64,000 nt of DNA from Tetmemena sp. SeJ-2015 (taxonomy: Eukaryota > Ciliophora > Spirotrichea > Sporadotrichida > Oxytrichidae), in assembly GCA_027382625.1 (NCBI GenBank), contig JAJKFJ010021383.1, forward strand, positions 99,958 to 163,957. The letters run 5' to 3'. The position numbers and the translations under genes are program-made. Of this stretch, positions 2,669 through 63,000 are shown piece by piece (position 1 is the first letter of the stretch; each line of letters begins with the position of its first letter). The notes under the pieces are model-generated. The model ran no database searches and was not told the origin of the DNA. It saw only the letters and a list, made by a program, of their open reading frames with translations.

Positions 2669-4165
2669 ATGGAAAACAAGTACCAACTTGCAAAGAGCTA
2701 TAACTTTCAATAAGATTTGGCTCCGGATATGTTCATCGACGCTAAAGACACAGTCAACCATTGGTGTGTAGCTTATAAGAAAATTTTTAGGGAGAAAAAC
2801 TTAGTCAAAATTCATTTCGAAGGCTGGAGTCTCAAATACGATGAGGTAATTCGTCATTAAGATTTATATGGGGAACTTTCCTTTCTGCTGGGAATTTCTG
2901 TAGCTCTATCTTTACTTTTCTTATTTCATCTGCTCCAAATTTTCAAGGAGGACACAAGAAGCTTAATTAATCAAAATTTAGTGGATTAAAAAGAATTCAC
3001 AAAGGATTACATCGTTCAGAAGACATGCAGAAGGCTACACTGGCCAAAAGAAATAGGCTCTCAGAGATTTCAAGATGGGAAATAAAAAATTACAACTCAG
3101 ATGCAACTTGTAAACAACTAATCTCACTCTTAAACCTTTTTACTATAGCTGAAGGAAGATATCGCGAGATGCATTGATGAGGGCTTCAGGAACTTCGAAA
3201 GCCATTTTTTAATTTAATATTATGAGTTCAGCCCCTATTTTTCAAAAACTTTTGGGTTTACTTCTGTAAAGCCTGGACGAACGAGGATGAGGAGGAAGCT
3301 ATCTGTGTTAAAACTTAGAACTGTAGGAGCTCCTTGTCGGCCGAGTATTGCTACAAAAATTTGGAGGAAAAAAAGATAATTTTACTGATTTATTAAATCC
3401 CACAATTATAGCGAATTAACTTGACCAAAAATGTTAGTTATAGATGGTTTTGAAGATACTTCTCTAAAAAGAAGTAAAAAAGACTAAAAACAGTGGCTAA
3501 TTACTGGAAAAGCTAGCTTTATAATCTGTAGTGAAAAAAATCAGGGCTTAACGGATAATATGTGTTTAAATAAGAGACTAAAACCTTAATTTATTAAGCC
3601 CAATGCATTTAACTTAATTTGTGAGAGGAAAGCTTTACTTTTACGTAGACTCGCTAATTTCATTGGTTGATTCTACTTAATAAATTTGCATATAATTCTC
3701 AGTGGAGGATTTGCCTATCATCTTCGAATTCATGACTTGCAATTTTAGTTTCATAATTACATCCTCAAATGGATAGAACTATTTCCGAGCCTTTTAAAAT
3801 CCTACCACGAGGCCATCTAGCATCCCAATCTCTACTTGGTAGACATGGATGCTGCTATAGCAAGTTGTGGCCCAGAACTTTTTGACATACTCAATAAGTG
3901 TTTTGGAGGCTGCTCTAACTATTAAATTATTATCATGAAATATCAGACTGAGTCTACCTTTGAAAGCGCTGAATAGTTTGTTAAAATACAATTTAGGGTC
4001 TTACTTTTTAAGTAGAGGAAAGAGCATAAAAGGTTGTCCCTTTGCGATGATTCTAAAAGCTCTGAATCCTGTCTACAGTATGCTTATGAAGGCTGACAAA
4101 AAATTCATGGCAGATTATTCCGACCAAGTCAAGAATATTCTCATCAAGAGACTCGAGAAACTTTA
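2669..4165 (+). CDS. USP N-terminal MDS block
   Basis: The ATG at 2669 opens [17 protein letters not shown]/Tudor-like stretch follows ([10 protein letters not shown]...[13 protein letters not shown]), then [22 protein letters not shown] sequence (frame near 3025-3085), [20 protein letters not shown] (3254 on) and LSAEYCYK. Then comes a region ending [11 protein letters not shown] at the CTTTA pointer (4161-4165). Several short inserts change frame. One is an 11-base TTTT-flanked IES at 3239-3249, whose removal joins SPYF to WVYFCKAW. A likely intron begins near 2847 (GTAATTCG). Confidence 0.8.
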
Positions 4166-7100
4166 AATGAATATTTCCTAAAAGATATAATTAGGCTATT
4201 TAGCTCGAACATCTCAGCGATTTGATCGGAGTTTTGAGGATCCCTGTACTCTATGAAATTCTTGAGCATGTAGATTATTTCTATGAGGATGTCTTTATCA
4301 AGTTCTTTGATTTCTATCTCCTAAAGGTTCTCTATAAAAATGAATTCCTAGAGTTTCTTCTTTCCTCTATAATAGTGAAACTTAAAGGCAGTTGAAAAAC
4401 TTACTTAGAGTCCTGAGTATCAAAGTCAATCATTTCAAGGATTGAAGTAAAGCCCTTTAGATGGCCAAAGCAATTGATAAAGGAAGATTACAGACCATTG
4501 CTTTTCTTTTCCTCTCTGTTAACAAACTAGTGATTACAACATAAGTAGAAGTAATATGCTTAGTTATATTTCATGAAGAATCTTTGGCATCTTGGGCAAC
4601 CTCAAATATTTCTAATTATATAGGGAGAAGAAAATTTTCACTCCTTAATAAGAATTTTATTACTTAAAGGCCTTTAGATTATTGCTAAAAATAGTTTAGT
4701 ATAATATCATTTGAGAATCAGTTTAAAGACAAGAGTCATAATAAAGTCTTATCCTCCACTGAGGATTAACCAACCAATTATTATCTTTTTACAGTCACCA
4801 ATTGTCATCTGAGGAAGATTTATCTTGAAATATTAGCAATAAATGCTAGAAGAAGAATTTTTATAATTTTTCTCTGGATCTATGTCAATCACTTATGCTA
4901 CACACCACTTAAATTATATAGATTTTTATTAAGATTTATTTTTCTATTGAGTTGATAAATATGATGAGAATAGGAAGCTCTCTGGAGTGACCACTCATTA
5001 TGAATAGATTCAAGTTCTGGCACAAGGGACTAGTATTTATAGATTCTCCTTAGGTGGTTGGCTGAGGTTACTAATTAATTATTATTTGATACTCTTTGAT
5101 AAGATCCTGATTAGAAAAGGTTTCCAAGAGCCACACGCAAAGCTAAATATTTTTAGAAAGTGCGACTTTGACTATTTTCATGAATGTGGGGATGGGTCTT
5201 CGTTCAACTATGAATGAATTATTTTCCTTAATTATGAAGTCATCATCTTCCTGAATGGGAATGTTTGGATATACACCCTACCTCTCATGTGTCTGCATTA
5301 AGGATTTATTCGTGAACAGGCAGAGGTATTTAGACGTTAGCTGAGTTTGCCTTCGCCACTTTGCACTATTCGTTCTCATTTAAATGATGAGCATTAAAGT
5401 TCCATCCTATAATTTTGTATGCTTCTTTGTAGAAATATTAGGATCATCCATCATCTCGTTAAATTTCTCCATTCTCATTTTTGTAATCTCAAACTCATTT
5501 TCATTTACTTCATAGCATTTAAGAACTGCTCATTGTTACTGATTTTTTTAAAAATAAGTACAAGTTCACAAACTTATCATCATCACCTCCAAAAGTCTCA
5601 TAAGGAATCTCCTCGGGATCAAATTCTTTGACCAAGTGATCGTTGAATTCGAACCACTTTCCATTTGGATTTTCTCTATCTTAGCTCAGAGAAATATAGT
5701 GACCTTGCTCAGCTGTTCCAATATGTACAACTACTCCCTTCAAGTTATAATCATAGTATTTAGATGGGATCTAATTTTATATGCTAATCTCTTCTCGATT
5801 TGTAAATTCTTGTCTTGCATTTCTTTTATAAGATCCTATTATCATTTCAAATTGAAAAGAAGTCACTCATGTTCATACTCATAGGGAACTCACAGTAATC
5901 GTTGATCTTGAATTTGGTCATGGTATCGTAATTGAATTCAAATCTCTTTAGAACCATGAAAAGCACATTAGGCATCCTCTTTATGCAGCACCTCTTTAGT
6001 GTGTTAACTTTCTTCTCGCATTTCTCGCAATAGTAAGCATTCAACAAACGTGAATGAGGACAAATATTGATTATCACATTTATTTCTGATTGTCTCCTTC
6101 GAGCATTTCTCCCTCAACAAAGGCATCTAGACTTTCCTTGATTGCTCTAATTATTAACTTGCAGATTGATGACCATAAAAGGCTCTTCTCTTTCGCTGTA
6201 GTGTGGACAACCCTTGCAGATGAACTCATTAGCGTAGACGCCTTAGAACAAGTTTCTGACTGCTTTTAGTTCCTTCTTACTTAAATTATATGCTATTCAA
6301 CCCTATCCATTAGCATATTAAAGAACTCATCAGCGTCTTTTTGAACCAATGTTGAATTACATTAGAAAATAGGATGAACTTCTTGGGATTCAAGTACTGC
6401 TTTTCAGTTTCCATAAGTCCACCGAAAATCATCTTAAGCTAGAGAAAGAATTTTAAAGGTGAAGGAGGAGTCTAAAACATTTCATCATTCTAGAGTCTCT
6501 CAGACTGAGAATCCTCAACTTACGAATGAAAAATACCTACTAAAGTTTAAAGAGACTTTCTGAAAGAGGGAATCATAAATAATTGTTGCATGAAAGAGTT
6601 CATGTAACAAATGCAACCTATGTTCTTAAGCCCAACGAAACCAGTCAAAGAGCGTTCTTACTAGTGAACGTTAATAGACCAGTCATTCCTTCTAGGAGTT
6701 CTCCAAAATGTCTCACTGATTTAGCCTTTCAAATACCTAGTTAAAATGAAAATTCCATCTCCATTGTTGACGCAGAGTTCCTATAAAACCTCCAGGCATC
6801 TCTCTCTGGTCCTATTATTCTTGCATTTCGGAGGAAGAGCCTTTTGCTTGGATATCATCTAGCCTCTTGTCTCTTTGTGGAAGAGACAGTCGTGAAGAAT
6901 GAATTACAGGAACTTGTTCTTCTCTGCAAACTGCTCTCTTGCTTCAGGGAATAATTTAAAATTATTTAGAAGAACTTTGAGAACACATTTTTCAGGAAAG
7001 TAAAGACCCCTGATAGAGTTATGTCCTCGTCCCTTGCGCATATCTCTATAATATCTCTCTCATAAATGATTTGAGTAAGATCCTTTATCAACTGATTGAT

Positions 7101-10100
7101 GGGTCTGATATTCTCTAATTCTTTGTATACTTCTGTGTTCATGAATATTTCATTCATCAAATCGAAAAACTTCTACGTCTTGAGCGTATATGTCTAAGTT
7201 AGAGCGAAGTCTAAGCAATGAAATTTTTCAGCATGGGTAGAGCTGGCATAACTCATTGATGTTGAAAGCGATGGAGTTTTGAATTTTGTCATTTTCAATA
7301 TCGATAAGAGCAGTTTTAATAAGCTACCCTAACTCCTTGAATTCGTAGTAAGTTGCTAGTTCAACAGGATGAGAAATATTAGCACAAAATACTTCCTCCC
7401 AAAGAATCATAGACTATTATTTCTTAAGCTGAAGATGAGTGGTTAGCTACTGAGTATGCGAATGTTCTTTAAACTTGAATTTTTCAATTCATGAACCTAT
7501 TGATAAATCACAGTTGAGATGAAACTACTCACAACTTAGAGCGTCTCAGTGATCAGGAGTTTCATAATAAGCAAAGATATATGTAAAGAATAGGCTTTAC
7601 AATACTCAAAGGATCTTGGCTGAATAGGTGGGTAAGAATTCTCAGGATTATTGTTAAAATCTTAGTCCTCGTAATATCTGTCTCCAAGCTGTGCTTATCA
7701 CAGAAATAAATCTGAGATTTTTCAATTAAAAGGTAAAAACTCAACTATAGGCAAGTTTTTATAGCAGTCTGTAAGAAAAGCAAAGCCTCCAACCTTCACA
7801 AAGACTTAGGCTATCTCAAGCTTCGATTAGTGCTCTGCTTATTGCTACTCTGAAGTTACTTCCTTTCTTGGAATAAGCAGTTCTTCTAAAACCATTAAGA
7901 AGTAGCAGAGTCGCGCGATCTCATTTTCAGGTCCCTACCATTAGAACCTAAATTATGAAAGAAAATTTTTAAAATCTAAAGAACAGCTTTGCAAATATTG
8001 CGGAGTTGTCTTATGCTGGATTGAATTTAAGCATGTTATCCTTAAAATGAATCTTTACTTAGGTAGAAATAGGAAGAATTTCCAGCAAGCTTAGTACCTC
8101 TATTTTGCAATCTTCAGATCCATTTTTCAGCATAAATATCATTAATTTTGAAGTTACTCCCTCTCCATTTCCTCTTTAGGTACTCTCTGAATATATCATA
8201 GATTCAATTGCTTGTAATCCTTGATAGGGTCATCATATAAATGCTCTTCCAAAGGACCTTGCTTAGTCTTAATAAAAAACTCACTTCACTTAAATTTGAG
8301 CAGAGTTTTTGCGAGTTGAAAACCTGAATCTGTAAAGTGACTTTAACATTTATGAAAAGCAATTCAGTTGATGATCAGGTCTGTCTATCGAGTTCTTGAA
8401 TTAAAGTAGGCACTTTTCAGTATTTTTAAATTTCAAATTTTATTTTACCTTTGACGTTTTATAAGCTATTTACGACTACTCTATCCTCTTTTTGTCTTCT
8501 ACTGATGATAATTGAAGCAGATGAATCCTTGCAGGTTTATCTTCAATGAAATAAAAGTTAAAATTATAGTTCATTTCATGAAAAAGAAAAATTTTTCAAA
8601 CTCCATATGATCTTAATTTTTTCCATAAATAGATTTGTTCGAGCTAAAGATAGCTGAGAAATATCTTAGATGCAACTTCTTTGAAAAAAGAGTGAGAGGA
8701 ATCAACGAACTCAAGGACATTTATTACAAGGTCCAAAATCAATACTTGAAGAATAGGCAAGAGTTGGCTTACATGAGATGGCTTAACAATGAAAAGTACA
8801 GTAAATGGATCATAGAATAGAAGATCTTAGACTTCATCTTCATAGAGAATCCTCATGTTGAACTTATCAAAAGATCCTTTGAGATTCTCAGACTATTGGC
8901 AGCCGATGAAAGGTTCTTTTATAATCCATAGTTTATAATGGAGATTTTTTCTTTACCCCAGAGATTGTTGAAATGCTTTGGAGTTGCTGCAAAGACAAGC
9001 ATGAAGATATAATCAGGGCTACCCTAGACCTAATTCAAGAACTCGCTATATTCCTGCCACTAGAAAGATTGCAGCATTTCTTTTAGAAGCTTCAAACTCT
9101 TAGAGAAAATGAGTATGATGAAAAATTCGTGAGTTTCCTGAGAAACTACACCCGCAATACAATGAAAAACATCCTAAAGAGGAGGGAGGATATTAACAGA
9201 AGTAGCACTATGGGAGGGCTAATGAATAGAGGAGGTAAAAAAGACACTAAAATTGATCCTTCTCAATACATAGATCTCCGTAAATTTTGGCTGATCATCT
9301 AAGACCAGAATAAGGTTTCATCCAAGATAAAAGAGCTTGCTCTGAACTCCTTGATAGACATACTTATGGAGTTCAATGACAAGGACTAAAAGTTGATGTT
9401 CATACAACTCTGCTTAGATAACATCAAGAAGGGAGAGACATTTTACAACTCCTTGATCTTCCTGAAGAGGATTCTGCAATCTTATCCTTTTGATGCATAG
9501 AACAGACTTAAATCTTCCTCGACTCCACAAGTGATTTCTGTCACTGCAATCCTCCAAGACATTTTCGCTAAGTTCGATCTCTTTGCCTTCATCTTCTAAA
9601 ACACTGAGCTCTATTTGAACTATTATTATAAAATGAATTGAGAATCATCATATTTGGCTAGTGCGCAACAAATTTTGGAGATAAAAACCAAGCAAGGTGC
9701 TAACTTAGAAAAAGTTGGTTAATCCATCTTTAACGGACAAGTAACTCATGATGAATTCATTTGGGCCCTTTTCGACTTTATTGAATTTGTGTTGGTGAAC
9801 TCCAAAGTTACTCTTAAGTTTGAAAATGTCGAAAAGCTTTTCAACTTGTTTGTGACGTCGGCAATCAGTGAAAATGAAACAGACATGTTCTTCCAACTCA
9901 TCACAAAAGAAAACGAGAGAGGAAAATCCGCACTATCTAGATTTTTACTTGACGACAAGGTGAGAAAGGAAGTTTTCTAGAGGATCTTCTGTAATAATCA
10001 GTACTTGAATAGTGAAAAGATAAACTCTCAGAATAGCAATTCACATCATTTTTCTTCATCTGCTTCAAAAGACTCTTCCTTATTGTAAATGAGGAAGAGA

Positions 10101-13100
10101 AGTCACTCGAGAGACAAATTTCAAATCTTAATTATGTCAAAGGCTTGGAAACTTTATGGAGCATAGCTATACAGTGCTAGAATTAGGAAGTTAAGGACCT
10201 CTGCAAAGACTTCCTCGTTGATTTGTATCTAAGGATAAGAACAAGATCCGATTCTCAAAAGAAAAGCTCCATTGAAATCTTCCCTCAAAAGTGCATATGA
10301 ATAAGCTTGATTAAACACACAACTTTTTATCAATAAATTAGCATTTAATCTTAATTGAGCTGAATTGCCTTAGGTTGATAAAGAACTTCATAAGCAGGTT
10401 TGATGGGGATCATATAGAAGAGGAAAACACGAATAATCTTGACCCAAGAGATTCAAAGTTGATAGCAGTGACTCTCCAGCCAGACAAAGTCACTTCCATA
10501 AGTCAATTTTTAATAAGTGGATAAAAGCTCTGGTAGCTTAAGAGGAAGATGGCTACTGCATTTAAGCTTAAGCTCAGTGAGTTTAAATCATCATCTAGAA
10601 ATTATGATGAATTATAATTACAAGATTGATAACATCCATATTCAGAGAGAAAGCAGGCAATTATGCTTTTATTTGAGAGGGAGTTCCCCAGATATCTAAT
10701 TTTAAAATCTACCAAAAATATTTGGATTACAAATTTTAGTTAATTGGTTATAGCGATGATTATCTGAACTAAGTTTATTGACCTTTTGAAAAATATTGAA
10801 TGACCTATAAAGCCTCTTCTGACTAGTGAAATTATGCAACTACCTTAATTATATAATAAAAAGCAATAATCTTCAGATATGCTCTCGATTTCATAAAGAA
10901 GGCATTAGTTTCTCATCTATAGGTAATTTATGTAATTATTATGCCAGCAACTGGAAAGCAAGTGAGTCTATTAAAGTAAAGCCCTCCTACTTCTTTATGA
11001 ATATATTCCTCAATAGTTGCTTAGACTTTGCAAATAATTCAATTTTAAATACGATAAAATGCATGTATATTTATCAGAAAGTCTATCCTCGAAGTTGATC
11101 ATTAAAATCTTTTTTTATCTATTTCTCTCATTTTGCAATTCTAAAATAGAATATCAAAAGCTATTATTTTTAAGACTTTATATTGTTTATAAAAACTAAA
11201 TTTAAAAAGGATTCAAATTAAAGTTTTAATTATAGAGATGATATTAAATGATGTAATAATTAAATTTCTTAGTATAATGAATCATATTTAGTTTATGATG
11301 AAAACGTGCTATTCTAGCTTAATCCATATTTGCAAAGAAGTTCTGTAGTGCATTCAAAGACATCGATGGACAGCCAATCGATCCTATGGTTCAAAAATCC
11401 TGATTATTGCATCTAATTTAATGGGTTGAGAATCTGATTGAAGGTAAGAAGAAACTATATCAATTCAAGCTCCTATATAAAAAGGGTTATATACACTAAA
11501 TTATCACATATATTTATTTACACGAAGTTAAGAACAAGCACTCAATCAAGGAACACAGTTATAAGTTAAGTGACTACGGCCAAGAAACTCTTGCTAAAAA
11601 GGATCTTATTAAACTCCTAAATATCTATCATAAACCAATAATTTAACAGTAGAAGACTTGAATGAAGACTAGAGAGCTGTCTATGATAAGTAGATCCCAG
11701 AAAACATTAAAATGATATGCAAATTTGTGAATTAAATGTATCAACAGACTCTTGCAAATAGTGGAATGCAGAATGAGCAGAAAGCACTTTCTATTATAAT
11801 TCCATTTGATAAATGAAAACTAAGATCAAGAATGCTTACGTCCTAATCTATGAGCGCGAGGAGATAATAGACATGGAGAAGTTAATCATTATATTGATGT
11901 CGATGAAAGAAGCAAGAAATAGCCTACAGATACGAATATGCAAATCTAGAAAATTCATAAGATCCTTTAAATGATAATAAATCCTTGAGAAAAACAAGAA
12001 GTTCTGGCTGAGCAAATTCATATTCAACAAAAGCTACATCGAATCGGTTTATAACATCTTCTTCAACATTCCTTATATTCTATTACCACCAGAGTTAATT
12101 TCTTTTGCTAATCTTGAAATTATGATGACTATGAGAATGCTAGAAACCATGATCTTCAAACAAAGTAAGGAGATTAGTTCGAGCAACTAAAGTTCCTCAC
12201 TACTTTCTTCCTAACACAGTGATTAGAGCCAAGGAACGAAGAAAATAAATGCTTTCAAAGAGTTCTTAATTGACTGCCCCATACCAGATATGAAGAGATT
12301 CGTTGGAGGACTTATCAGCACAGCCATGCAGAAAGTTTATAGGCATGAGGAAGCACAAATCATCAATTACATCGCCTAGATGAATGCTAGTGTTATCGAT
12401 TTCATAAATGAGTCTCAAGGGACTTCAATAAAGCATCATAGAAGCGTAAATATGGCTCAGCCAACCATTTTGATACCTCTTACGAAAAGAAGAAATGCAT
12501 ATTTCATATCTGAGAATTTATCAACTCATTAATCCACATGGCTGCCTCATAGCATGTGATTAACTTTTAGCTGATCTCAGGATAGCTTTACCAAGTCATG
12601 GCTCATTTCTCAGAACTTGGAGAGCAGGCAAGGCTTTACCTGCTGAAGAATAAGCAGCTAGCAAGATTCCTAGAGTTGATTTCCCAGAATGAAAAGCTCA
12701 CCCCTCAAACTGTGGATAAGGTAAGAAATGAGTCACTACAGTAAATCCCCCTCTTCAAGATAGAAAAGGAGTTCTACATAGCCTAAAACCTTGAAAAAGC
12801 AGTCATTATATTGACGGTTAATGAGAAGAAGCTACTCCTTAAGGATTTAATTCCCTGGCAAACATTCGTTTCCTACATCATTTCCAAGCTTGCTAGAAAA
12901 GTATTTTTGCTCTATTTATGAAATTTGCGAGATCATGCATCTTTGTAAAATCTTAGGTCCCCAACCCTTACGCCTTAGACTCACTCGCTTTCATCCCCGA
13001 CGATTTGGAGATGAGCTTGATAATAAACTTCAAGAACGAGTCGTGGTGGCGCATCAGCAGCTTTAACAAGATTTCTCGTAATGCAGTTGCAGATATGTTC

Positions 13101-14218
13101 GCCACATGTCATTCGATAATAAAGAGATGTCTCTGCAGCTGATTCAGCACTTGTTAGAATCCATCAATCGCGTGTCTTTCGACGGCTACAAAGTATTCGA
13201 GAGAGCCTTGGTAAAGCAGGTCATAATTAAGGACTAGTACTAGCTTGAAAGGACCAAAAAGATCTTGCAAGGCTTGCACGACATAATCAGAGCTAACACT
13301 TAGTAAACTAAATTTTCTCAACAAGAAAGGAGTAAACTTCTTATTTAAGGTTTATTATAAGGACGTAGATTCTTTGATAGAGATAATTGTGAAGATGGCT
13401 CACAGATCGTAATATGTAGTAGACTTGATGGGAAAATCCTCTAATCTCTACAAGCTGATAGAAATGTGGTCCAAGGAGTACCCCCACATTCCCCTAAACC
13501 AAAGCAAGGTGAAGATCTTCAAGCAGGGTCTGATCGGCAATAACGCCTTCAAGGGCAACTTGCAAGTAAACCAAAACTTCATAGAGAGGATGACAGCTTA
13601 CACCAAAGAAAGGCTAGGCAGGCTTTAGGCTTTGGTCAGCAAGGAGATTACACCCGATGAGAATCAATACGATTCAGACGATGACATGTACGAGGCTAAT
13701 CTACAAGAGAACTAGAAAGTTGATTACAGGTAAGCTAAAAAACACACTATCGCATGCTTATTTATCTCAGAATTTAATATTCTTAGGTTTCGCTAATCTT
13801 CCTTTTAGGGATCCTTTCACAAATGAATTCCTACATAAATGAGACAAACAACTTTGTTGTAATTATTAGATTCCAGACAGGAGTGGTTGAGATTAACTTG
13901 GATCAGATGGTAAGAGTAAGGAGAGAGGAGAGAATCTACCAATCCAACCATCAAGCCAATAAGCAGTGCCAGCCTCACACTTGGATCGAATGCGAAGCAG
14001 ACAAGCTTGCACCCCGCGAACACTCTCTCGATTAGCGAGAAGAGAAGGTTCTAAAACTATTTCCTACAGTTGCTAAACGCCATGCTACAAGGAAATAAAC
14101 TGTGTATAATCAATTATTATTCTAACTTATTGAAATTGAGACAACTGAAGAGGCATCGATATCATGGGTTGATCTAATAGCACAAGGCAATAAAAGTGTT
14201 CTTAAGTTAAAGTCTTGA
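2669..14218 (+). CDS. Scrambled, partly inverted ubiquitin-specific protease gene
   Basis: This is a large USP9X/USP34-type deubiquitinase whose pieces lie on both strands. Reassembled order by pointers: N-terminus (+, 2669-4165), inverted segment (-, 4326-4199), helical-repeat region (+, from 8636), then catalytic core alternating between - segments (about 8560 down to 5091) and + micro-segments (11335-11397, 11423-11457, 11525-11553, others), then the C-terminus (+, 12255 to TGA 14216-14218). The Cys box (GCICYMNS, catalytic Cys codon 6609-6607) and His box (GHYISL, His codon 5701-5699) are both on the - strand. Flanking regions match the helical N- and C-terminal regions of this family. 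Role: removes ubiquitin from substrates. Ten inter-strand junctions are in frame. Not every junction was resolved, notably between 10.26 and 11.3 kb and around 8.56 kb. Confidence 0.92.
3239..3249 (+). other. 11-bp IES, pointer TTTT
   Basis: TTTT at 3239-3242 is repeated at 3250-3253. Deleting 11 bases restores [19 protein letters not shown]. This is among the shortest inserts in the window. Confidence 0.65.
4199..4326 (-). CDS. Inverted USP segment (MDS)
   Basis: On the - strand this reads [20 protein letters not shown] and continues to DQIAEMFEL. It belongs between the end of the N-terminal block and the + block at 8636. Its 5' pointer CTTTA (4326-4322) matches + 4161-4165. Its 3' pointer TGTTCGAGCTAAA (4211-4199) matches + 8636-8648 over 13 bases. 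The fused protein reads [16 protein letters not shown] and [15 protein letters not shown] without a break. A spurious + strand ORF overlaps this segment. Confidence 0.9.
4327..5090. other. Spacer between inverted USP segments
   Basis: I could not assign any USP segment here. The + strand is open for about 60 codons near 4200-4390, but this is the shadow of the inverted segment. The rest is AT-rich with no conserved motif, and is presumably eliminated DNA. Confidence 0.45.
5091..8560 (-). CDS. USP catalytic-core MDS block (inverted)
   Basis: Reading leftward on the - strand: a helical region ([19 protein letters not shown] near 8530; [20 protein letters not shown] near 7740; a stretch near 7160-6970), then the linker LPPKCKNN near 6820. 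The Cys box follows (about 6640-6600), then [16 protein letters not shown] (about 6340), [19 protein letters not shown] (about 6220) and a double-Cys finger [19 protein letters not shown] (about 6030). After that come [11 protein letters not shown], the His box GHYISL (5705-5688), KWFEFND, and finally [13 protein letters not shown] ending at pointer TCAAAGAGT (5099-5091). Gaps in this block are filled by + strand micro-segments at 11.3-11.9 kb. A normal IES with pointer AAT (6089-6091 / 6039-6041) also interrupts it. Confidence 0.88.
8636..10260 (+). CDS. USP helical-repeat MDS block
   Basis: It starts at pointer TGTTCGAGCTAAA (8636-8648) and runs [19 protein letters not shown], then [18 protein letters not shown] (TAG read as Gln) and [19 protein letters not shown] (9090 on). 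Next come [19 protein letters not shown] and [20 protein letters not shown], then [20 protein letters not shown] (9760 on) and [20 protein letters not shown]. The block is close to colinear, with a few frame-restoring inserts (near 8945, 9645 and 10090). It ends near SIEIFPQKC. This is the conserved armadillo-like region upstream of the catalytic domain in large USPs. Confidence 0.85.
10261..11334 (+). other. USP interleaved region, partly resolved
   Basis: Coding pieces on the + strand include [19 protein letters not shown] (about 10360-10410), [33 protein letters not shown] (about 10570) and [14 protein letters not shown]. They match the part of large USPs just upstream of the region encoded at 8.56 kb on the - strand, so further even-numbered micro-segments are expected here. 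From about 10700 to 11330 I could not assign individual segments. The sequence is AT-rich with short open stretches. Confidence 0.55.
11335..11397 (+). CDS. USP micro-MDS, 63 bp
   Basis: It encodes [21 protein letters not shown] of the catalytic domain. The left pointer AAGAAGTTC (11335-11343) equals the - strand copy at 6384-6376. The right pointer TGGTTCAAAAA (11387-11397) equals the - strand copy at 6348-6338. Inserted between those two - strand sites it bridges [10 protein letters not shown] to [16 protein letters not shown] exactly in frame. The sequence is conserved in USP catalytic cores, and the - strand copy lacks it. Confidence 0.95.
11423..11457 (+). CDS. USP micro-MDS, 35 bp
   Basis: It encodes ENLIEGKKK. 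The left pointer GGGTTGA (11423-11429) matches - strand 6303-6297. The right pointer AACTA (11453-11457) matches - strand 6271-6267. Fusion gives [19 protein letters not shown], where the - strand alone has a frame break. Confidence 0.93.
11525..11553 (+). CDS. USP micro-MDS, 29 bp
   Basis: It encodes VKNKHSIKE. The left pointer AAGTTAA (11525-11531) matches - strand 6160-6154. The right pointer CAATCAAGGAA (11543-11553) matches - strand 6144-6134. Only 11 bases are not pointer. Insertion turns the broken - strand frame into [19 protein letters not shown], the conserved USP motif at this position. Confidence 0.95.
11554..12254 (+). other. USP interleaved region, end of catalytic domain
   Basis: Open pieces include [14 protein letters not shown], which starts at pointer TTTGTGAA (11724-11731, matching - strand 5572-5565 after GGDDDK). 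[18 protein letters not shown] (about 11827-11880) is the terminal strand of USP catalytic domains. [20 protein letters not shown] (about 12003 on) and [18 protein letters not shown] follow. They alternate with - strand pieces such as QIPLPVHEQILNA (about 5340-5300). Exact ends of these segments were not all fixed. Confidence 0.7.
12255..14218 (+). CDS. USP C-terminal MDS block
   Basis: It starts at pointer TCAAAGAGT (12255-12263, matching - strand 5099-5091), giving [21 protein letters not shown], a typical post-catalytic USP motif. It continues with [76 protein letters not shown] and [20 protein letters not shown]. It ends at TGA 14216-14218. Several short frame-changing inserts remain (near 12720, 12905, 13110, 13310 and 13730). 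Confidence 0.8.
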
Positions 14219-14625: not shown

Positions 14626-16580
14626 ATGAAGAGTACATTAGCCCTTATCGCAGCACTATTGAGTGCAAGCGTACTAGCAGCAGGCCCTGGCAGCGGAGAA
14701 ACTTTCTATGACGAGAGCACTAAAGTTGTCAAGCTCACCAATCAAAACTTCAAACAGCTGGTAGCAGATGACAAAGAAGGCATTTGGTTTGTGGAATTTA
14801 TTCATTACTTATCATATTAACATAGTGTGTGAGTGATTTTATAAAGTAATTTTACGCGCCTTGGTGCGGCCATTGCAAACGCTTAAAAAGCACATGGATT
14901 GACCTTGCTAGATACCTCGAGGGTGAAAACATCAAGGTAGGCGCAGTTGACATGACCACCGATCGTGACGTGGGTGCCCCCTTCGCCATTAGAGGATTCC
15001 CCACTTTGAAACTCTTCGGCGGTGATAAGAGAAAGCCCCTGACCTACAACGGCAAGAGAGATCTAGCCAGTCTTACTGCCTATGCTATTGAGACTGCAGC
15101 AGAGCAGAGAAAGGGTATCGCTGAAGGTCTCTACGAGAGAAAGCCATGGAAGGAGGAGTCTACACATCTTAATCACCTATATCTTATATTAGAGAGTCCT
15201 CTAGCAATGAAGAGGAGCACAGAAAACTTAACGACTTTGAGATGCCAGATGTGAAGAAGATGAGCAAGAATTAGAGGAGCGACACCGTAAATTGGAGAAG
15301 GAAAACGAGAAGAGAAGAATGAGCGGTGAGGAGCCAGACAGGAAAAGAGCAGGTCGTGGCATTCCCCAGGAGGTCAAGAGAATCGACTCTGCCTTTTGGG
15401 ACGAAACCGTTCTTAAGGGCGACAAAGACTGGATCATAGTCATTGCTAAGGATAGCGACAGAGAGACCATGAGAATTGGCTCAACCATCAGGAGAGAACT
15501 CAGCAGAATCCAAGAGAAAGTTAAGATAGGATAATTTAGAATCTAATTCATACTTACAAGAGTATTTGTGGATTCATCAATGCAGACGAGTAATAGGCTT
15601 TAGTTGATAGACTTGAGATCCAAGAAATGCCAGCAGTTAAGTACTTTGCAAAGAAAGAAGGTGGTCTTAAGGACTCAGATGCTCAAGATGCTAAAGTCAA
15701 GGGACAATTAATAATTGGCTTATTTTCAAGTTATGAATATAGGACTGGTATCTTTCATGCCAATCGTGAACAAGCTAGTCCAAGATGTTGAATCCCTAAT
15801 TGAGAAGATCACAGACCAGAGAAGCTTCAACATAAAGTGCAAACCTAGAACTATCTGTATCATCTTCTAATGCTTTCATAAGATATTTTGATGTATATAA
15901 ACATCTTCTACGTTCCAAAAGAACTTTCCACTGAGGAGAGAGAAGCATTAAAACTTCTCTCCAATTAGTTTTTAAGCCAAGTTGAAGGCTTTGCAAAGCC
16001 ACGTGTCAAAGGCTGACGACATGACTTTGGCTTTCATGTGGACTACCTACGATCAGCAACCCAGTCTTCAAAACGCTATGAAGGTAACCACCTCTGATGC
16101 CATCCAGTTGGAGTGATCAGACCCTTCCAACGCAAGAAGGCCCTCATGGCCTCTTCCCTTGATTTGGATTCTGAAGATGCAATAATTCTCTTATTATAAT
16201 GCATCAATTCTTCTCTTTAGATGGCAAAGTTGCACTCAAGAATTTCCTGAAGGACGTCATCGAGGCAGACTTCCCCTTCGACGACATCTCAGACGGCGAG
16301 AGACCTAGAATTGTAGACCTGGGAAGAGAAGAGAGGGAGGAGTCGTTCAGAAGAAGAAGACTCGACAGGGAACACAGAAGAATGGACTTTGAGGAAGAAG
16401 ACATGATGATGCAAGATAGAATGCCTCCCAAAGTTTGACAAGGAGGACTATGACCAATACAGGGAGGATCCCTCAGGCCACAGAGAGAGGATGGAAAGAC
16501 ACAGAGAAGAACTTAGAAGAGACATCTAACGCCGCAGAGACCAAATGGAAGAGATGAGATAGGGCTATGCTGAACTTTGA
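14626..16580 (+). CDS. Protein disulfide isomerase, interrupted by IESs
   Basis: The ATG at 14626 opens a signal peptide (MKSTLALIAALLSASVLA). A thioredoxin domain with active site APWCGHCK (from 14853) follows, then the cis-Pro region GFPTLKLF (near 14995). A charged linker and a second thioredoxin-like domain (ICGFINADEQQALVDRLEIQ, near 15570) come next, then a third region (ICIIFYVPKELSTEEREALK), and a Glu/Arg-rich C-terminus ends at TGA 16578-16580. In-frame TAA TAG in NADEQQALV are read as Gln. At least five pointer-flanked inserts interrupt it. One falls directly before the CGHC motif. No ER-retention tail is obvious. One residual +1 frame change at about 16430 (near CCCAAA and GTTTGA) is unexplained. 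Confidence 0.88.
14795..14847 (+). other. 53-bp IES in PDI, pointer AATTT
   Basis: AATTT at 14795-14799 recurs at 14848-14852. Removal gives WFVEFYAPWCGHCK. A GT-AG intron from 14791 to 14846 is also in frame but would give WFQFYAPW, one residue short of the family pattern, and its 5' end (GTGGAA) is poor. Confidence 0.75.
15156..15193 (+). other. 38-bp IES in PDI, pointer GAGTC
   Basis: GAGTC at 15156-15160 recurs at 15194-15198. Removal joins WKEES to SSNEEEHRKLNDFEMPDV in frame. A GT-AG reading with a GTCTAC donor is formally possible. Confidence 0.7.
15523..15557 (+). other. 35-bp insert in PDI, pointer AAGA
   Basis: AAGA at 15523-15526 recurs at 15558-15561. Removal gives EKVKSICGFINADEQQ. 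A GT-AG intron from GTTAAG (15520) to ACAAG (15560) also restores the frame, so the class of this insert is ambiguous. Confidence 0.6.
15861..15901 (+). other. 41-bp IES in PDI, pointer CATCTTCTA
   Basis: The nine-base direct repeat at 15861-15869 and 15902-15910 flanks an insert carrying a TGA. Removal gives TICIIFYVPKELSTEE. The long repeat makes chance unlikely. Confidence 0.85.
15994..16006 (+). other. 13-bp IES in PDI, pointer CAAAG
   Basis: CAAAG at 15994-15998 recurs at 16007-16011. Removing 13 bases gives VEGFAKADDMTLAFMW and avoids the TGA in the adjoining frame. Confidence 0.7.
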
Positions 16581-17087
16581 CAAGTCCACCTTCTAGTTCT
16601 CTACTATAAATCAATTTTAATGTGAAAATAGAAATTTTGTTTGCATTTAAAGTTTAAGATTTAAAAGGAGAAAATTTTTATGAGTCTTAAACTAAAATGC
16701 ATAAAAACTCATCAGAAAAGTCAGATAAGATAAAAACTTCATAGTTTAAAAATAAAATTCTCTAAAAAGACATTTAATAAAGAATAACTAAGATAAAGAT
16801 ACAAGAAGATGATAAATAGACATTTTCAGAGTTTGAAGCAGTCTCTTCTTTTATCTATTCTATTTTGTGCCAAAATAATTTAACTTATCTCTATTTATAG
16901 AAGGAATGAAGGTGAAATATTTACAAGAACAAAACTTGTTAGGAAAATACAAATCATAGACTAATTATAGAGAAGTGAAGACTTAAGAATAGGAATAGTC
17001 TGGCTGCTAGAAAAGATAATTTTCGAGCCTGAAACTCTTCCTCTGTATTTATAAGGTGCATAATATAATGCGGGTTTCACATTTATC
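16581..17087. other. Spacer between convergent genes
   Basis: AT-rich. It lies between the stop of the isomerase (+) and the stop of the next gene (-). No coding frame, RNA gene or repeat array was recognised. Confidence 0.6.
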
Positions 17088-50200: not shown

Positions 50201-51997
50201 TGGAGGAGAGTTGGAGCTTCTACAACAGAGCTAAGACTTTGTATCCTTTCGAGGGTAAAATCTTCAACTAATTGGCAGTGATATCAGCTAAGGAGAATGA
50301 TTATCTCGCTTCCATATATTACTTCATGTGAGCCTTATCATGCCACTTCCCATTTGAGTCTTCCAAGGAGAGCTTGATTGACCATTTTGAGGAAATTAGA
50401 ATCAAATTCAACGAAGAGAGAAATGCAAATTTCAACAGTAGGAGTGCTGTCCTCTCAAGAGGCGGCCCCGGCTCAAAGGATGAAAAGATTTTCTTCAATT
50501 TCATCCTAGCCTTCTTTAGACTCTAGAGCATACTATATTCAAGAATTGGAGTTGATGAGCTTGAAGCTCTCGAGCCTGAAGTAATGAGACAACTTAATGA
50601 TTACTTTCTCTATATTGATAAGGAATAGAATAAATTGGATGAGATAAGTAAAATTGTACACATCAGCATAGTGATGATATTCGTAGCTCACGCAACTATT
50701 GCAGATACTATTAAAGACCTTCAAAAGTAATAGAGAAAAGCCAAAAAAAATCTTAAGGAGGAAGAGTAAAAGGAGGATTCTGATGAAAGTTAAGCTTCTG
50801 ACTTTTAATTAAATGAAATGATCGTATATTGAGATAGTTGATCTGAGCTAGAGAAGGCTTTGAATCAATAGCTGCCAAGGTATGCTATTCAATAGATATC
50901 CAGCCTTCTCGTCTTAATTGTTGACCGTATTTCTCAACTGCCTTCCCCTTGGCTTGAGGGCTTGACCCCTCTTCTAACTTGGCTTACTCTACACAAGGAT
51001 GACGAACTCCTTACTTCTATATTCAATGTGAACCCTTAAATGAGGCAGGATTTATCAAGACTCCATAAGCTCCTTTGTAATTACGTTTATCAAGAAATGA
51101 AGCAAATAAGAGATGAGGAAGAGTAACTTAAGCTGAGCTAAATGATGGGAAATCAGTTACTTAACGAAGAGACTTACTTTGTCGGATTCCTCCCACTTTA
51201 AACCTTCATTGATAATAAGAAAGAGATAGGAAGTGGTGTCAAGTGCACGCATCCAAGAGAGGCACTAATCCGTAGTTTGATCATTAAGGATCATCTAGAG
51301 GTGCTTAAATGCACGCTTGAAGATATGAAACAAAGCTCAGAACAGTAGCCCTTCAAAGGATTCTCAAAGATCTAGTAGCCCTGAGGAAGTCAAGGAGACA
51401 GAAGAATTCTTTGCACAGATTGATAAGTTGGTGGTTAATTCTCAGAAGCTAGATCAGAGACCTCTGATTATAGTTGATGCCTCAAATGCAGCGATGAGAC
51501 ATGGAGGAGGAAAGTATTTCTCAGTTATGGGAATCTAGATAGTGATCTAGTTCTGGGAAAAGAACGGCCATTAGGTGGTTTGCTTCCTTCCCGATTATCT
51601 CTTCAGCTATGAACTAGTGACTCAGAAGAAAAAGTTGGCTGCTGCAGGAATTAAGGAAGGCAAGGCAGCCTAGATTCCAGATAACCTCAAGCTTCTGCAT
51701 GCTCTATCAGATAAAGGCTTTATTATTAAGACACCCCCACAGGACTATGATGACTCTTATTGCATCAAATATGCTAAGAAGTTCAATGCATTCATTGTGA
51801 CAAATGACAAATTCAGAGACTACGTTTAAAAGAGAGAAAACTCAGAGCAACACAAGGAGAGAAAGTGGGTTAAGGATCATTCAATCAGCTATACTTTCAA
51901 TGGAAATGAGTTCCTTCCTAATCCTGACTCTAAAATCTTCACCAAGTACGAATATGAAGACTACAAGCATTTCGCAGTAGAAGACTACAGCTAATGA
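47253..51997 (+). CDS. EST1/SMG-like protein with C-terminal NYN (Zc3h12-type) nuclease domain
   Basis: ATG at 47253 (MDKNALRKTPNLSANK), TGA 51995-51997. The N-terminal 2.3 kb is disordered. From about 49600 an EST1/SMG5-7-type 14-3-3-like TPR region follows: LKRLWGVMISEIQYCE, SGWLLLYMGDLSRYKAKCSE, FYNRAKTLYPFEGKIFNQLA, then PFESSKESLIDHFEEIR. From about 51400 a NYN/PIN nuclease fold follows, with acidic residues in LIIVDASNAAMRHG, PPQDYDDSYCIKYA and FIVTNDKFRDYV. SMG6 has the same order but a different PIN. The likely role is mRNA decay. An in-frame TGA (about 50327) replaces the conserved Arg of the YYxxRxL motif. A +1 frame change lies at CCCTGAG (about 51381). Confidence 0.75.
49969..49986 (+). 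other. 18-bp IES, pointer TTTA
   Basis: TTTA at 49969-49972 and 49987-49990. Removal deletes an in-frame TGA and gives PESFTQTTDRHFETLKLIF. Confidence 0.7.
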
Positions 51998-60078: not shown

Positions 60079-63000
60079 TCACTTTTTATTAGGGTGTCTC
60101 CTCTGCACATGCTGTTCTAGCTCGTCCTTATTCTTAAACTTCCTTCCACAGGCTTCATCAGGGCAGTTGAAGGTGGGCTCTGGCATGTCGTTAATTAAAG
60201 CGTTCACCATATCCCTTAGTCCCTTGATTTCCTCCATCTCTTCCTCATTTGCAACGTCCTATAATTCGTTAATAAGGATTTAGGGTTGTTTATGACTTAC
60301 CATTATACTGTCTAGTTCTTCTCCGAGACTGCTGAGAATCTGATCCAGCTTTTCAATTTCCCTATTGCCCCAGAACTGGCTAGCAGACTCTTGAGCTACG
60401 TTATGAAGCGCCTTTGCTGCAACCTTTGCAAGTTCCATGTCCTCTATGTTTGCGTCTCTTAGCACATCTATGAGTTTGGCAATGACTCCTTGCTCTAGCA
60501 TCTTAGTCCTCGTTGCGGGGAGCAGAGTGAGGTTGATTACGATACCTATTGCGTAGAATACTAGATCTCTGAGAGTGTGGTCTAATACTACAGCCAGTGC
60601 CTCCAAGAAGGTTGGGTCGTTTATGAACTCAAGACACAAAGTGGGATGGCGAGAAAGATTTGAAAGTACCCTCACTGCTTCGACCTGTAGCTTGAAACTA
60701 TACATAGTAAATAATTTTCTTTGTAGCTCTTCATTTGGAGTATTGAGGATATATCCCTTGAGCGAGTTGAACATGTTGACGCGCAGTTCATCAGTAAGCA
60801 GTTGATTGTGAGGGACATCGTAGAACATGATGTTGGTGCAGCAGCTGATGGCGTTGAAGAGGAACTCCTCGCTCTTCTAGTTACTCTTCCTCTTCACAGA
60901 CTCAAGCATCTTTCCCATAAACAAGTCTGCTAATATAAATTATATAAACACAGCTTTTATAATATTGAATTTATAAAGTTGAGTTTCTCTTGAGAGCTCT
61001 TCAAGTGCTTGGATGTGAACAGCTCATCAGTGCTCAGATTCGCCACCAGTCTGGCAATTAATTTAGCATTTTATTAAGATATATGTAATTAGTCTGATGA
61101 TCTTGATTAGGTTGTCTTCGATGTTGGCGAGGTTGTTAACTGGGTCAAGTTTGGCCTCCCCTTTGGGATTCTTAGGGTCTTCGATGTATCTGTCTACACC
61201 CTCTCTTACTAAAGTCTCCTCCTTCTCAAAGTAAGTGAGAGCCACTTACAGTAAACTTAACAACTGTATTGAATTATTTAACATTACATATAATATTTTA
61301 TCTTGCTGAAGGATGGCTGGTAGTTTGCAATCTACTCCCGTGCCTCCTCAAAGTAGGTGGTAAGGTTTGCAAGCACAAAGGAGATTCTAACTGGGAAGTC
61401 TCTGATGCTCTGGTAGTCCGAGAGGAGGTCTACCAGTGACTGTAGCTTGTGGCTTTTGATGAGCGCATAGGAGCATTCAGAGTCCATCGATACCTTACTC
61501 AGAATTCGAGACACGTTTATCATCAGTTCAATAAATAGCATAAGCATCATATATTCATAATTTAAATGCTCTTAGTGGCCTTTGAACTTCTCCAGGATAT
61601 CCACTAGTCTCTCAATGACTCCATTGGCTACAAACTACTCCTAACTTATCTCTTCATTAGCTAGATTTCTGAGTGCTCCGCATATCTACACCAAGTTCTG
61701 AGCCTTCTTGCTCATGTTAGTCCCAAAAGAGATTGCCTTCTACATGCATTTGCTCAGTAGCAGGATGTACCGTTGCTTTACTGCCTCTGCTTACAGCTCC
61801 TAAGAGGACTGAGAGAAGCACTTTATAGAGCCGATCACGTAGTTTACCAGATCGTAGATCAAGTCCTCGTTTAGGATCTCCTTTCTATTCACTGTGTGAG
61901 AAGTCAACTATAGAAATAAGTGGATCAAATAAACCTCATCTTTAACTTGATAATCACATCTGCTCGATCAAGGTAGCACTGATAGAGAGCTCTCGAAAGC
62001 TGAGGAATAAGTCCCTCACTCTTGAAAAGCACATCGTTCTTCTTGTCTTTAGCATATACTAGCAGCACCTTCATGGTTTCGAAGAAATAGCCGTACAGCT
62101 TTTTGAAGTCTGCCTGCGTGCCATGGTTTAAGTTGTCACAGTATCTATCGAAGATCTTTAGAAAAAGATGTATGTTGCAAGCAGAGAGGCGTAGCACAGA
62201 GCGAGGATGTTTTACTGACAGCAGAGAAAATGAGCCCTTCAAGAGAGTCTCCAAGAAACACTGCTGCTGCACATTAGCTGGCTACTTCTCGTGTTCTAAA
62301 TGAAGATACAAGAGAAGAACCTTAAATTTAAGTATCTGTGGCGAGGGTGTATATTCTGGTGCACAGCTCCATTATCTCCTCATCATTAACTAACGGTTTC
62401 TTCTCCTTGCCCTCCTACTTCTTGCTTTGAGTGATCATAGCGCAGTGCCTGCTTATCTCGCTAATGACTTCAAAGTACTCTCCCATGTACCCACTCGTCA
62501 GCTACTCTTCACTCTCCCCTCCCATTATTCTCTCAGTCATGTATGCATCCTACTCCTCCTGCTCCTTTTCCTCCTCCCCACTATTCTTAGATTGGTCGAT
62601 GTTGTTCACTCTATCCTGTATCTTACTGAGAGCAGAGGAGTAGTCTACTTTCTCCTCGTAGTGTTCCACTCCTTTGATGTCAAGCTGCATTTGGCTCTCG
62701 AAGTAGTCCTCATACTAGTCTTCGTTGTCTCCTTCACCATCGCCGTTCTCTCTGTTGCGGTTGGCTTGCTTGATCTACTGCTGAATCTTCTGAAGGTTGA
62801 TAAGGTTGTCCATGCGAGACTAATCAAACTTCTGCTGCTCCTCCATACGCCAATCCTCACCGCCTACCATCAAATCTGAGAAGTCCTCTTCAAGGTCTTA
62901 GAGAGCGGATTCATTTTAGGCTGATGAGTTCAGCCCACTCTTGTTCAACTGGCTCCCACTCTTTTAAGTTCCAAGCACCTATCGAGATTACTTATAATAC

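Follow-up and report, generated by a model that had tools for sequence, protein, structure and literature searches.

Support for a ubiquitin-protease gene that is scrambled, partly inverted and interleaved in odd/even order on opposite strands

The window analyzed here is a stretch of 64,000 nucleotides from the ciliate Tetmemena sp. SeJ-2015 (contig JAJKFJ010021383.1, positions 99,958 to 163,957). By the tests that were run, the best-supported reading of positions 2669-14218 of this window is that a ubiquitin-protease gene lies here in scrambled and partly inverted form, its segments interleaved in odd/even order. We give a probability of about 0.93 to the reading that this is a USP9X/USP34-type gene whose segments alternate between strands, with a predicted somatic assembly of ∼15 blocks by inversion and joining at short repeats (pointers). 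The blocks and their 14 joints lie within 11.6 kb, and the strand switches at every joint. Exact pointers are present at 11 of the 14 joints. The coding segments would be inverted and joined at their pointers in the developing somatic nucleus, and the spacers would be discarded when the blocks join. Joining at the level of DNA is suggested by other hypotrichs, for which PMC7599177 describes guidance by long RNA templates. The contiguous, unscrambled somatic form is a prediction made from the germline sequence.

The segment order can be recovered without reference to the pointers. A profile built from 11 database relatives was aligned to the + and - strands, each jump being charged the same fixed cost. 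This blind alignment scored 887 and returned thirty segments that follow the order of the protein and change strand eight times. The path runs through + 2723-3907, - 4598-4246, + 8641-10602, - 7202-6382 and + 11341-11382, and continues through - 6349-5579, + 11822-12058, - 5193-5098 and + 12260-13736. Even the 42-bp piece 11341-11382 was recovered, and block 1 was returned as four pieces (2723-2845, 2982-3077, 3582-3659 and 3761-3907). When only one strand was made available, the score was 425 (+) or 406 (-) rather than 887, and a single-strand gene with introns or frameshifts was set aside on this basis. The same procedure applied to seven further stretches of the window gave scores of -59 to -68, and the best segment among them reached 25.0 bits. 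One of the thirty segments (6526-6600, 13.2 bits) is noise. A first profile run with a low jump cost was overfitted and was discarded.

The blind path agrees with the alternating-strand order that had been proposed in an earlier note on this DNA. It also extends that proposal at the N terminus, where coding pieces on the - strand (4598-4246) are placed between + 3907 and + 8641, and the joined N-terminal peptide matches residues 213-543 of the Stylonychia protein P0007 (E 7e-30). The scrambling described in the earlier note stands, although this inverted cluster (∼3906-4603) and its 13-bp pointer, TGTTCGAGCTAAA, had been missed. Block 3 and the micro-segments 11423-11457 (35 bp) and 11525-11553 (29 bp) were not found by the blind alignment; for these three (blocks 3, 9 and 11), support comes from pointers, frame and conservation judged by eye.

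Seven pointers (J4-J7, J11, J12 and J14) are 8-13 bp in length. Those at J4, J5, J7, J11 and J14 occur a single time per strand in the locus, and J4 occurs a single time per strand in the whole window. The words AACTA, AAGTTAA and TAAGGA and those of J1-J3 have several to many copies in the locus and are supported by their position in the chain of joints. At J4-J14, an exact pointer closes segment n and opens segment n+1, and the segments are out of order and partly inverted in the blind alignment, in keeping with its one-strand controls, as in spirotrich-type scrambled genes. Chance pointers were set aside on the basis of these word counts and a placement test, in which the longest in-frame, stop-free word shared at a joint was set against those from 400 placements chosen at random within the locus. 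The test covers four of the 14 joints, which are four of the eight strand changes found blind, and it gave P = 0.0025 for both J4 and J7 (the floor of the test), 0.040 for J6 and 0.030 for J14.

With TAA and TAG read as Gln, the frame is open at each of the J4 and J6-J14 joins and at the J5 join too, and the joined core reads as a USP, as had been claimed. All eight pointer pairs quoted in the earlier note are present verbatim at both positions and on the strands given. Ten pairs had been counted there; the two left unquoted are most likely AGTGAGTTT and TAAGGA, and the 14 joints found overall exceed that count. Read from left to right, the joints follow the order 1 2 3 4 3 2 1 14 13 12 11 10 9 8 7 6 5 4 5 6 7 8 9 10 11 12 13 14. 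In terms taken from PMC5940158, this pointer word consists of two odd/even return words with pointer 4 in common, and it is fully reducible. The earlier description of odd/even interleaving on opposite strands is supported.

Once joined, the core forms a complete USP domain with its catalytic boxes, and a USP9X/34-type deubiquitinase is predicted from it. It matches the Pfam UCH family (PF00443) over the full length, positions 1-254, with 173 bits; the unjoined germline pieces in 5612-6636 score 46.1, 43.8 and 40.8 bits. The nearest solved relative is USP9X (FAF-X; E 4.4e-61), followed by USP34. The Cys, His and Asn/Asp boxes are present at core positions 14, 289 and 308. Of 61 core columns with an invariance of at least 95% across 60 relatives, the scrambled copy keeps 57. 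By BLASTP it is at best 52% identical to a listed relative (58% over trimmed tree columns), and no close relative was seen in the best 120 of 468 proteins.

An unscrambled sister gene, also of USP9X/34 type, lies on the - strand of the same contig outside the window (G000:C2462:51382-60000). The distance to the scrambled gene is ∼40 kb (the fetched stretch ends 42.6 kb away). Aligned to the same profile with the same settings, the sister scores 2066, with 20 of 22 rows in order on one strand; of the other two rows, one is noise (11.5 bits) and the second is an artefact of strand concatenation. Its core is 84% identical to that of Stylonychia lemnae, with which it pairs in the tree with support of 100/100, and 59 of the 61 near-invariant columns are kept. 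The branch of the sister is 0.10 in length versus 1.11 for the scrambled copy, whose place in the tree is unresolved. Because 57 of the 61 near-invariant columns are preserved, the residue pattern argues for a scrambled copy that is functional and fast-evolving rather than a relic.

Several properties of the DNA fit a hypotrich germline source related to Stylonychia. Within the frame of the gene, TAA and TAG are read as Gln, and the sister gene groups with Stylonychia lemnae as described above. The assembly holds 67 matches to C4A4 repeats, a count whose built-in control is uninformative because the pattern is identical when read backwards. The G+C content is 37.2% in segments and 29.1% in spacers, for stretches that were hand-chosen and include one short spacer entry overlapping segments; AT-rich spacers are expected for such genes. 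The genetic code found here differs from that of Euplotes, which sets the source apart from that genus. As a separate observation, a dense C4A4 repeat array occupies G000:C2828:3805-4156 and is possibly a germline telomere or the end of a telomere-bearing element.

How gene scrambling arises in hypotrichs is treated as an open question in PMC9797194. For odd/even loci, the same paper predicts that the spacer separating segments n-1 and n+1 descends from a duplicate of segment n. With moderate confidence, we propose from this locus an inverted duplication followed by complementary decay, which fits that published model. Each stretch would have survived intact in a single copy while its counterpart decayed, and a spacer on one strand would be the remnant of a segment now drawn from the opposite strand. 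The lengths of segments and of the spacers that they replace correlate as the model expects (rho 0.96, n=11; permutation p 1e-4 for the first ten pairs), and do so without the two N-terminal pairs (rho 0.98, n=9). These pair lengths include internal ordinary spacers, and for the two N-terminal pairs the limits were chosen among alternatives.

Sequence similarity between segment and spacer, measured with the pointers excluded, is above that of dinucleotide shuffles in three of ten pairs (d, 0.0005; h, 0.004; n1, 0.0065). Combined by Fisher's method over all ten pairs, the values are 4e-4 against dinucleotide shuffles and 7e-4 against random real DNA. These two nulls replaced mononucleotide shuffles, and the same three pairs stood out. 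A 362-nt query joined from pieces of both strands matches the - strand copy along the whole query at 88%; on the + strand, its positions 50-181 match at 86% and its positions 288-316 at 100%, the latter being block 11 itself. No further place was found for this query among the matches listed in the 146-Mb assembly. The scrambled copy seems to retain traces of the inverted duplicate that it replaces. A bolder version, to which we would give even odds, is that the locus captures, in frozen form, one stage in how a scrambled gene is born. It would comprise two inverted duplications hinged on the common 13-bp pointer, with complementary patchy decay; the colinear sister ∼40 kb away would represent the starting state, and scrambling and rapid protein divergence would be coupled in one copy only.

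Several observations weigh against these readings. In the assembly, two joined probes (155 and 362 nt) had no match outside this locus. The pointers at J1-J3 are 4-6 bp in length and ambiguous, and J12 was not returned by the automatic joint scan; it depends on its exact word and an open frame that was checked separately. Five blind segments (24.7-26.8 bits) are at or barely over the control maximum of 25.0 bits, among them the two of block 2. The stretch of ∼350 residues that separates the ubiquitin-like part from the catalytic domain is loosely mapped, and micro-segments b, d and f contain zero near-invariant columns. For the proposed origin, segment/spacer similarity is not significant in seven of ten pairs (b, c, e, f, g, i and n2), and an eleventh pair, a, has a local match with P ∼0.10.

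The seven pairs lacking significant similarity, together with the presence of short pointers (5-6 bp), would suit an origin other than duplication and decay, such as the alternative model discussed in PMC9797194. We consider that model unlikely, if worth keeping in mind, since a rho of 0.96 over 11 pairs and the similarity in three pairs are not obviously expected from it. It is much less probable that the scrambled copy persists in the germline as a decaying relic, no longer assembled into a functioning gene, with the unscrambled sister doing the work. Its long branch and the distance of its best database matches are what a relic might show. However, both the reading frame and most near-invariant core residues (57 of 61) are preserved through the joints and the catalytic boxes are intact, and a relic is unlikely because such residues, spread over 15 blocks, would hardly persist. 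Least credible is an assembly or amplification artefact from chimeric fold-back reads. The layout is indeed palindrome-like, but a fold-back would give near-identical arms, whereas the arms here have diverged, interleave in steps down to 29-118 bp and carry complementary coding content. The occurrence of scrambled and colinear copies of one large gene on one contig, with the apparent traces of a duplicate in the former, makes the duplication-and-decay model testable stepwise in related species, and a long conserved gene can serve as a marker of assembly accuracy across 14 inverting joints.

The coordinates of the blocks and pointers are collected in the table. Mapping of the first part of block 6 (8285-7202) is loose only; with a low jump cost, the weakly conserved middle of the protein gave just a loose colinear track on the - strand. 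Block 12 contains two likely ordinary same-strand spacers that still need removal for the reading.

Table. Blocks of the scrambled gene and pointers at its joints, in window positions; each pointer is given at the end of one block and the start of the next.
Feature	Position	Strand	Pointer word	Description
Block 1	2669-3909	+		N-terminal coding, start ATG 2669; ordinary same-strand spacers inside; ends J1 (GAGG, weak)
Block 2	4428-4603	-		inverted N-terminal segment; blind alignment 25.7 and 26.7 bits
Block 3	4047-4159	+		N-terminal segment; seen in frame translation; J2 (ATGATT) and J3 (GAGAA) ambiguous
Block 4	4199-4332	-		inverted; ends in J4; blind alignment 28.9 bits
Block 5	8636-10584	+		large; starts J4, ends J5
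Block 6	6376-8285	-		inverted; catalytic Cys box; ends J6
Block 7	11335-11397	+		63-bp micro-segment, J6 to J7; recovered blind, 26.8 bits
Block 8	6297-6348	-		52 bp, J7 to J8; QKDADEFF motif
Block 9	11423-11457	+		35 bp, J8 to J9; missed by blind alignment
Block 10	6154-6271	-		118 bp, J9 to J10
Block 11	11525-11553	+		29 bp, J10 to J11; supplies KNKHS; missed by blind alignment
Block 12	5565-6144	-		J11 to J12; finger cysteines, His box
Block 13	11724-12171	+		J12 to J13; catalytic-domain end (NAYVLIYER); likely ordinary spacers within
Block 14	5091-5230	-		J13 to J14
Block 15	12255-14218	+		C-terminal coding; ordinary spacers within
J4	4211-4199 / 8636-8648	- / +	TGTTCGAGCTAAA	13 bp
J5	10576-10584 / 8285-8277	+ / -	AGTGAGTTT	
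J6	6384-6376 / 11335-11343	- / +	AAGAAGTTC	
J7	11387-11397 / 6348-6338	+ / -		
J8	6303-6297 / 11423-11429	- / +	GGGTTGA	
J9	11453-11457 / 6271-6267	+ / -	AACTA	
J10	6160-6154 / 11525-11531	- / +	AAGTTAA	
J11	11543-11553 / 6144-6134	+ / -		
J12	5572-5565 / 11724-11731	- / +	TTTGTGAA	
J13	12166-12171 / 5230-5225	+ / -	TAAGGA	
J14	5099-5091 / 12255-12263	- / +	TCAAAGAGT	

In the spacer replaced by block 14, a 13-residue peptide encoded at 12178-12216 (+) resembles profile columns near the end of block 13, with a score of 21.4 bits that is within the control range. It is perhaps a leftover of a further duplication. Directly after the scrambled gene, at 14631-16600 (+), is a protein disulfide-isomerase-like gene that, read by eye, stays colinear on a single strand apart from short interruptions; its top database match (67%, with 56% of the query covered) is an unnamed protein from a contig of 1,857 bp. 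Of 20 other open frames of the window scanned with Pfam, two gave matches. One of the window's open frames (51329-51997, +, code 6) encodes a Zc3h12a-like NYN ribonuclease domain (E 5.9e-26), and another (60079-61023, -) has weak armadillo-repeat matches, one of them at the Pfam cut-off. A search of the window with Rfam at the gathering threshold gave no match. Two short tandem repeats are present in the window, both outside the locus.

Compared with the USP9X and USP34 deubiquitinases, the predicted protein shares the full UCH domain, the catalytic boxes, the flanking regions and the size class. It differs in its divergence, with a core at most 52% identical to listed relatives, in contrast to the 84% identity of the sister to Stylonychia. 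Among the literature matches listed, none names a scrambled germline ubiquitin-protease gene in its title or at the start of its abstract, and the phrase "inverted duplication" is absent from the matches listed (10 of 14) for scrambled genes.

Inverted and odd/even germline genes are already well documented in hypotrichs (PMC7599177, PMC5940158 and PMC9797194), and the locus described here is one more case. The DNA polymerase alpha gene of Oxytricha and Stylonychia is likewise a many-segment hypotrich gene joined in development, and an extreme one, whose segments may occupy both strands. It is a different gene, however, with >40 segments in two loci >3 kb apart (PMC7599177), whereas here ∼15 blocks lie in 11.6 kb. 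Return-word loci of Oxytricha trifallax (1234 4321) resemble the two fully reducible return patterns found here, and mixtures of such operations account for 96% of its scrambled chromosomes, according to PMC5940158; the difference is that here two return patterns are centred on one pointer (J4) in one gene. In the odd-even loci of Euplotes woodruffi, Oxytricha and Tetmemena, segments and the spacers that they replace also correlate in length and partly in sequence, and scrambled genes tend to have paralogs (PMC9797194). Shared cores in the Euplotes woodruffi loci reach ∼97.5% similarity in that paper, whereas the similarity here is weaker. What is unusual is that one contig combines a colinear sister gene with a locus whose two return patterns meet at one pointer and whose spacers match in length.

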